From Dehalococcoidia bacterium (GTDB lineage Bacteria > Chloroflexota > Dehalococcoidia > Bin125): DNA of 64,000 nt. Under the pieces are notes generated by a model. The model was not told the origin of the DNA, did not search any database, and worked only from the letters and a program-made list of their open reading frames with translations. This document shows, piece by piece, positions 42,182-59,754 of this stretch; the stretch's first letter is position 1, and the number at the start of each line of letters is the position of its first letter. The stretch spans positions 248,001 through 312,000 of the forward strand of contig JAJDWB010000019.1 of NCBI GenBank assembly GCA_022825855.1. Reading direction: 5' to 3'. The position numbers and the translations under genes were made by a program.

Positions 42182-42207
42182 CCTCCGCTCCCCTCTCCCT
42201 TCCCATT

Positions 42208-42262
42208 TCCCTCTCCCCCCGCGCAAGCGGGGGGAGATGCCGCAGGCAGAGGGGGGCTCCCC
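42208..42262 (+). repeat. Palindromic dispersed element, copy 1
   Basis: About 55 bp. Inner stem CTCCCCCCGC/GCGGGGGGAG around a short loop, then gatgccgcaggc, then AGAGGG pairing back to an outer CCCTCT. Near-identical copies lie at 57661-57704 and 58889-58945. Confidence 0.8.
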
Positions 42263-57656: not shown

Positions 57657-57660
57657 CTTA

Positions 57661-57704
57661 CTCTCCCCCCGCTTTGCGGGGGGGAGATGCCGCAGGCAGA
57701 GGAG
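57661..57704 (+). repeat. Palindromic dispersed element, copy 2
   Basis: Near-identical to the copies at 42.2 and 58.9 kb over the stem and the gatgccgcaggcagagg segment; the right end is diverged or truncated. It lies between the rnhA stop and the rnpB promoter, occupying the place where an rnpB -35 would be. Confidence 0.8.
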
Positions 57705-57714
57705 GCAACCGCGC

Positions 57715-57726: not shown

Positions 57727-58127
57727 CGCCAGGCCGCCGGGCGGTCGCGGTTCCCAGTCAAGTCCGACTTGGCCGGGGATCGAGGAAAGTCCGGGCTCCT
57801 CGGGACAGGGCGCTGGGTAACTCCCAGGCAGCGCGAGCTGACGGAAAGCGCACAGAAACACACCGCCTACCCGTCCTCTCGTGTGTGGGGACGGCGGCAA
57901 GGGTGAGATGGTGCGGTAAGAGCGCACCAGCGGTCGGGCGACCGGCCGGCTGAGCAAGCCCCGCCCGGAGCAAGACCAAATAGGGAGGCGACGGCTCGTC
58001 CCGGGCCGCCTCCGGGTAGGTCGCTCGAGGCGGCGGGTAACCGCCGTCCCAGATGGATGGCCGCCGCCCGACTCCGGGAGCAATCCATGGCGTCGGGTAC
58101 AGAACCCGGCTTACAGGCGGCCTGGCG
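57727..58127 (+). ncRNA. rnpB: RNase P RNA, bacterial type A
   Basis: The catalytic RNA of RNase P, which matures tRNA 5' ends. The universal core is clear: GAGGAAAGTCCGGGCTC near 57782, ACAGAAACA near 57851, and near the 3' end AACCCGGCTTACAGGC. The 5' end (CGCCAGGCCGCC, 57727-57738) pairs perfectly over 12 bp with GGCGGCCTGGCG (58116-58127), fixing both ends; length about 400. No terminator separates it from murE, so it may be processed from a longer transcript. Confidence 0.96.
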
Positions 58128-58158
58128 ATTGACGCGAATCAAGAGTGAGAGCGAGCGC

Positions 58159-59754
58159 ATGACGAGCAAGCCGCTCCGCGAGATCGTCAGTTCAATCTCA
58201 CTGTCTAATGACAGTCGTCTGCCGGACATCGTCGTCGGCGATGTCACCCAGGATTCGCGCTCTGTCACACACGGTTCGGTATTCGTCGCTCTCCCCGGAT
58301 TCACCGTCGATGGCCACCAATACCTTGACGCGGCTATCGCCAATGGAGCGGTCGCGCTCATCGTCCAGACTGACCGCAGACAGCTCTGGCAGCCAGTCGC
58401 AGACGCGTATCCCGACATCGCTGTGGTCAGCGTCGAGGACACGCGGGCCGCCCTGCCTCAGATCGCCGCCGCCTTCCACGATCATCCCGCCCGCAAACTC
58501 ACCGTCGTCGGCGTCACCGGCACCGACGGCAAATCGACCACGACCTACTTCATCCACGCGATGCTCTCCGCCGCCGGTCATCCGACGGGCCTGCTCAACG
58601 GCGTCGAATTCCACGTCGGCGGCGAGTGGAGCCGCAACGAGACCGGTGAAACCACCCCCGATGCAGACATCATCCAGGCCAGACTCGCCGAGATGGTCGC
58701 CGCCGGCGATACCCACGCCGTCCTCGAAATCAGTTCCCACGCCCTCGAACTCCACCGCGCCGACCGGATCAACACCCGGGTCGCCGTCTTCACCGGCCTC
58801 TCCGACGACCACCTCGACTTCCATGGCACTCGGGAACAATATCTCGCCGCCAAGCTCAAGCTCTTCCAATCCCTCGACGATCACCAGGTTCCCCTCTCCC
58901 CCCGCGAAGCGGGGGGAGATGCCGCAGGCAGAGGGGGGCTCCCCCGCGCGGCGGCCGTCGTCCGAGCCGAAGACCCGCTCCTCGACATCATCCGCGCCAG
59001 CCACAACCAACACACGACCCTGGCGACCGCGACCCCCAACACCACCGCCGACGTCAGCGTCCTTGCCTCGTCTCAGGACGCGCGCGGCTCCGACATCCGC
59101 GTCGTCACGCCCGCCGGCGCGCTCGGCGCGCGCCTGCCGCTGCCCGGCGCCCACAACCTCGGCAACGCCGCCCTCGCCGCCGGAGCCGCCTGGTCGCTCG
59201 GCGTCGGACCCGTCGCGATGCAGGCGGCGCTCAACAATCTCCGACCCGTTCCCGGTCGGATGGAGTCGATCGACGACGGCCAGCCCTTCACCGTCATCGT
59301 CGACGCCGCCGCTACCGGCCCGGCTCTCGACCTGGCGCTGCAGACGCTCAAGCCCCACGTCGAGGGACGCCTCATCCTCGTCTTCGGCGTCGCCGGCGAG
59401 CGCGACCCGATTCGCAAGTCCGCCATGGCCGCCGCCGCCGCGACCTACGCCGAACACACCGTGATCACCAACGAGAACCCGCGCTCTGAAGACCCGATCG
59501 AGATGGTCGCCGAAATCGCCGCGCACTTTGTCGAGGCCGGCGGCCAATCGTTCGACCGAGAGCCCGATCGCCGCCAGGCCATCGAGCGCGCCGCGTCGCT
59601 CGCCGGCCCCGACGATCTCGTCCTGATCGCCGGCAAGGGCGCGGAACCAACCATGATCTACGCCGACCGCGTCGAACCCTGGGACGACCGCGACGTGGCC
59701 CGAGAAGTCCTGAACAGTCTCAACAGTCTGCCTGCTGATCGCCTATCTCCGTAA
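58159..59754 (+). CDS. murE: UDP-N-acetylmuramyl-tripeptide synthetase MurE
   Basis: Mur ligase adding the third amino acid of the peptidoglycan stem. 531 residues: N-domain with VGDVTQDSRSVTHGSVFVALPG, ATP loop GVTGTDGKSTT (about 117-127), and C-domain with NENPRSEDP where meso-DAP enzymes carry DNPR, so the amino acid is uncertain. About 19 residues (VPLSPREAGGDAAGRGGLP, near 245) are encoded by a palindromic repeat inserted in frame. The ATG at 58159 lacks a strong ribosome-binding site. Confidence 0.92.
   Translation: MTSKPLREIVSSISLSNDSRLPDIVVGDVTQDSRSVTHGSVFVALPGFTVDGHQYLDAAIANGAVALIVQTDRRQLWQPVADAYPDIAVVSVEDTRAALPQIAAAFHDHPARKLTVVGVTGTDGKSTTTYFIHAMLSAAGHPTGLLNGVEFHVGGEWSRNETGETTPDADIIQARLAEMVAAGDTHAVLEISSHALELHRADRINTRVAVFTGLSDDHLDFHGTREQYLAAKLKLFQSLDDHQVPLSPREAGGDAAGRGGLPRAAAVVRAEDPLLDIIRASHNQHTTLATATPNTTADVSVLASSQDARGSDIRVVTPAGALGARLPLPGAHNLGNAALAAGAAWSLGVGPVAMQAALNNLRPVPGRMESIDDGQPFTVIVDAAATGPALDLALQTLKPHVEGRLILVFGVAGERDPIRKSAMAAAAATYAEHTVITNENPRSEDPIEMVAEIAAHFVEAGGQSFDREPDRRQAIERAASLAGPDDLVLIAGKGAEPTMIYADRVEPWDDRDVAREVLNSLNSLPADRLSP
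58889..58945 (+). repeat. Palindromic dispersed element, copy 3 (inside murE)
   Basis: About 55-57 bp, nearly identical to copy 1 at 42.2 kb. It lies wholly within murE and keeps the frame open; its product is a Gly/Pro/Arg-rich loop just before the conserved AEDPLLD segment of the central domain. Confidence 0.85.

Follow-up and report, generated by a model that had tools for sequence, protein, structure and literature searches.

Palindromic repeats inserted in frame into protein-coding genes are best known from Rickettsia. The Rickettsia palindromic elements (RPEs) described by Ogata et al. (2000, 2002), as reviewed in PMC10969869, are about 150 bp long, with close to half of the reported elements located in open reading frames (ORFs). 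In-frame intragenic palindromes have also been documented outside Rickettsia: REPs of the GTAG/CGTC type are mostly intergenic, but a minority lie in frame in genes, with DnaE2 as one of the targets (PMC3733652). The same study reports that two Xanthomonas species carry different REPs at roughly the same position in recB and that heterodimers are common. In-frame palindromes as such are already known; the element class described here, its host phylum and the turnover of copies at the same sites are new. The insert that we analysed in murE is, on our reading of the sequences, very probably a non-autonomous, REP-like mobile palindrome of a single Dehalococcoidia genus, an in-frame survivor whose site has undergone turnover.

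The murE gene (58159..59754, + strand, 531 codons) lies within a stretch of 64,000 nucleotides (hereafter, the window) from a 2.82-Mb draft genome. Pfam Mur ligase domains, a TIGR01085 score above cut-off and a match to MurE structures assign it to UDP-MurNAc-tripeptide synthetase, and its nearest MurE relatives in named collections come from MAGs labelled Dehalococcoidia or Chloroflexi. A longer ORF begins at 58057 and overlaps rnpB, but because this RNase P RNA gene occupies 57729-58129, directly upstream of murE, the start codon is probably the ATG at 58159. A preliminary description had reported a palindromic element lying wholly inside the gene and translated as about 19 residues near position 245, with further copies at 42.2 kb and 57.7 kb, and these observations hold. 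The element (58889..58945, + strand; VPLSPREAGGDAAGRGGLP) is entirely within the ORF, covers residues ~244-262 and adds exactly 57 nt, or 19 codons, its precise junctions being uncertain within a few bases; it contains no stop in any of the six frames. The other two copies, also on the + strand, are intergenic. One (57657..57712) immediately follows the stop codon of an RNase H-like gene and ends ~16 nt before rnpB, where it could possibly act as a terminator or processing site, and the other (42207..42262) follows by ~25 nt a gene that, from its sequence, we take to be ruvA. A 22-nt core of the element matches three times in the window and not once in shuffled sequences.

The element is ~50-57 nt long and contains two hairpins. 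Hairpin A (CTCCCCCCGC, a loop and GCGGGGGGAG) is followed by AT, hairpin B and AGAGGGGGG. In murE, hairpin A folds as CTCCCCCCGC-GAA-GCGGGGGGAG (58896..58918, + strand) and hairpin B as GCC-GCA-GGC (58921..58929, + strand). Across copies, hairpin B appears either as GCC-GAA/GCA-GGC or as a longer GTCNC-loop-GN'GAC, and this longer form shows compensatory changes; for instance, its fourth pair is found as A-T, G-C, C-G and T-A. Over 19 distinct variants, 98.9% of cells are paired, and the covariation score is 0.287 compared with 0.088 after shuffling, a value that none of the 500 shuffles equalled. An outer stem enclosing both hairpins (CCCTCT/AGAGGG, 58892..58935, + strand) is possible according to the RNA fold and would compete with hairpin A. 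It had been proposed that a stem-loop would also form in the murE mRNA, and the RNA fold predicted for this region agrees (-45.4 kcal/mol, z -2.3 relative to shuffles). Searches of Rfam returned nothing convincing for the element, and rnpB, next to the second copy, is a gene distinct from it.

A comparison of orthologues places the element as an insertion into the gene. In the MurE alignment, the extra block is present in nine of the 15 members of the genus and missing in the remaining six, as well as in all 13 outgroup genomes that cover the site, and the two best matches among solved MurE proteins have a gap at the same position. The distance between fixed landmarks is 21 nt in empty genus members and 78-117 nt in occupied ones; the differences are +57, +60, +63 or +96 nt, every one of them a multiple of three. 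Thus, the proposal that the residues near 245 are inserted is borne out, and the observation that would count most strongly against it, namely the same residues in distant taxa, was sought in these outgroups and solved proteins and was not found. The AlphaFold2 model of MurE (mean pLDDT 90.2, pTM 0.90; TM ~0.8-0.85 against MurE structures) contains a single internal stretch with pLDDT below 50, residues 248-260, which corresponds to the insert. This stretch sits in the loop preceding strand 265-269 and is predicted to be disordered.

Across the genome that contains the window, 30 copies of the element were found (up to three mismatches), about 27 of them outside genes. Copies were examined in the sequence stretches around each of them with a home-made codon-usage score that was weak near gene ends and had murE, dnaE2 and the CoA-transferase gene as its training set. 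By this score, three of the 29 assessable copies look intragenic, as do three of 61 in the relative G009. All three intragenic copies of the source genome are in frame, in murE, in a DnaE2-type error-prone DNA polymerase and in the linker of a tandem CoA-transferase-like protein, which was named from its sequence. On their codon scores, we discounted the long ORFs surrounding copies L023 and L025, and copy L013 is a possible fourth in-gene case, near the C-terminus of its protein. Given that most of a bacterial genome is coding, intragenic copies are strongly depleted, as they are for REPs, and since most copies are intergenic, the element is best regarded as mainly REP-like, with rare survivors in coding sequence. 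With a stricter pattern, it was found in 14 of the 15 genomes of the genus, at 0-144 copies per genome, and in none of the 279 genomes sampled from the rest of the class, which include five from the same family.

The three gene sites are common to relatives, but they are filled with different, stacked or inverted copies. At the dnaE2 site, there is a single copy in G000, two in G004 and three successive elements in G011 (L136), while G003 (L137) carries an in-frame array of several elements with an inverted partner and G010, G005 and G001 have no element. In G012, this site falls at contig ends (L143, L138), one of them in a long C run, beside pieces of the element; here, the repeats probably broke the assembly. 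The CoA-transferase site holds a single copy in G000, G011 and G014; in G003, G004 and G010, the forward copy is accompanied by an adjoining second piece, apparently an inverted copy, and several other relatives lack the element. At murE, the pairs G000/G011, G005/G001 and G003/G004, which are sisters with ultrafast bootstrap values of 97-99 in the MurE tree, the sole basis for these relations, differ within each pair in their tail variant or in having a single or a double element. The 3' flank is longer where the tail has 22 nt and shorter where it has 26 nt, and because these lengths compensate, the frame is kept every time.

Sequence conservation within the insert follows an unusual pattern. 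A 24-nt core is identical in seven of the nine occupied genomes, and the mean identity at its third positions is 0.97, compared with 0.64 at codons for the same residue elsewhere in these genes; only 25% of murE codons that encode the same residue in eight genomes are identical. A core conserved amid such silent divergence suggests either renewal, by re-insertion or conversion, or selection at the nucleotide level. Renewal is favoured by the tail switches and by the decay of the neighbouring hairpin, since in the murE genes of G001, G011 and G014, decay has affected the extra upstream hairpin and left the downstream one intact or almost intact. We also considered the exchange of a long murE tract between species with the same tail and rejected it, as the sequence of G011 to the left of the insert is, right up to it, most similar to that of its sister G000 (0.90, compared with 0.80-0.83; the 60 nt to the right carry no information).

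The alternative that survives best is a single ancestral insertion inherited vertically, in which the hairpin would be selected in murE DNA or mRNA as a co-opted regulatory structure that might, for example, affect mRNA stability, pause translation or bind a protein, and the tails would have arisen by ordinary mutation. Most occupied genes have both the 24-nt core and the GAA loop, and the presence of this loop in eight of the nine murE copies, the main argument against renewal, is more easily explained by a single inherited insertion than by entirely separate ones. The insertion is also clustered on the MurE tree, with at least one change and most simply two. Nevertheless, we consider this alternative unlikely: the difference between the 22- and 26-nt tails of sister species would have to be balanced in every case by a 4-nt change in the flank, the upstream hairpin of the double copies has decayed freely, six members of the genus live without the hairpin, and the same element is found in unrelated genes in another frame.

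A second alternative is that the peptide itself has a function in MurE, such as that of an interaction loop, and is under selection. The insert has been kept in nine species, and its core residues, SPREAGGD, are nearly constant. The residues that follow the hairpin, however, vary between species with the tail type (DAAGRGGLP or DVAERQRGAP), and other genes read the element in a different frame (SPPAPRGEMPQAEGG), which makes selection on the peptide unlikely. Moreover, the loop is predicted to be disordered, and what is identical is the nucleotide sequence, to a degree that codon choice does not require. What is conserved is the hairpin and not the peptide, and we regard a functional peptide as very improbable. 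We give almost no credence to an assembly or binning artefact, for although the named relatives are draft MAGs and repeats are prone to misassembly, nine separate assemblies carry the insert at the same position and six do not, with frames intact.

Under the preferred reading, that of a mobile palindrome with turnover at its sites, most insertions would end up in intergenic DNA, and survival inside a gene would require a net length that is a multiple of three, the absence of stop codons and a target in a linker or a loop at the surface. The murE insertion would have added 19 disordered residues to the loop that joins a helix to a strand in the central domain. The peptide would be neutral, and at murE, dnaE2 and the CoA-transferase gene, elements would have been replaced, stacked or re-inserted as the species diverged, with renewal through re-insertion or gene conversion.

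Mobility would presumably depend on an enzyme acting in trans. The Y1 (IS200-type) transposase family (PF01797), which includes the REP transposases, has no match in the source genome, so mobilisation by a RAYT was set aside there, and the single one of the 15 genus genomes with a match has no element near that gene. In G009 (L163-L182), the elements are paired tail to tail as heterodimers, with a spacing of 40-45 nt in 30 of 34 close pairs. Longer inverted ends, which fall into two subfamilies (CTGATGCATA... and ACCTTTGAATAACTCCC...), enclose these heterodimers, and the whole measures ~200 bp or more. This long form resembles REPIN or MITE units and is a likely MITE parent form. MITEs are recognised by terminal inverted repeats together with a target-site duplication; occupied and empty genomes are too diverged for such a duplication, or an exact empty site, to be read. 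No paired elements were found around the copies of the source genome, which are solo. Another short palindromic repeat (CCCTCTCCC...GGGAGAGGGTTAGGG) adjoins some copies of the element (L014, L015, L029).

Weak matches, the best with an E value of 8e-3, revealed look-alike repeats in plasmids of Rhizobium, Sinorhizobium, Martelella, Azospirillum and Deinococcus and in viral contigs. Those from Martelella, two Rhizobium and the viral contigs resemble the element in having a stem that ends in GGGGGAGAT, then a second small hairpin and AGAG, but their loop and first stem differ, so that kinship is only possible. In IMG/VR viral contigs (L203-L218), the pattern was observed in 16 stretches, some with very different first stems and the same end, GGGGAGATG...CAGAGGGG. 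On plasmid p3 of Rhizobium sp. NLR16a (L221:1501-1531), an annotated ftsY gene contains one of the two-hairpin look-alikes; in-frame acceptance may therefore extend beyond Chloroflexota. Among the papers listed by a literature search for the sequence of the element, all were unrelated. We suggest tentatively, and with slightly less than even confidence, that two-hairpin palindromes lacking GTAG/CGTC tags and a known transposase form a class, perhaps present in several phyla, which again and again returns to or renews the same in-frame sites in core genes (murE, dnaE2 and the CoA-transferase gene). If so, one surface loop of an essential enzyme would be a standing hot spot for insertion, where the DNA is refreshed and the protein sequence is free to change.

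How, then, does the element compare with known systems? Like the REPIN/MITE doublets, it forms tail-to-tail heterodimers within longer inverted ends in G009; unlike them, the copies of the source genome are solo, and a partner transposase was not found. It has the general properties of a REP, being short, palindromic, present in many copies and chiefly intergenic, and it shares with the intragenic REPs a small number of in-frame cases that include DnaE2. The GTAG/CGTC REPs differ from it in that neither tag marks an end of the element in the copies inspected on both strands, and its two-hairpin layout and a source genome without a Y1 transposase also separate it from them. The preliminary description had likened the insert to RPEs. 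As a statement about how the element works, the likeness stands: these are palindromic repeats in frame in unrelated protein genes (murE, dnaE2 and the CoA-transferase gene), absent from orthologues, tolerated as extra residues and found as stacked insertions. It does not extend to membership of that family, from whose descriptions the present element differs in its length (~50-57 nt), its GC-rich sequence, its host phylum and the share of its copies in genes (~10%). Thus, an unrelated element of Chloroflexota has led to the same outcome as in Rickettsia, and it offers a comparative series of empty, single, double and arrayed sites at three genes with which the entry of palindromes into proteins, the cost of an insert and the repeated targeting of one site become testable. 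Gly/Pro/Arg-rich inserts in other predicted proteins may likewise be decoded mobile DNA.
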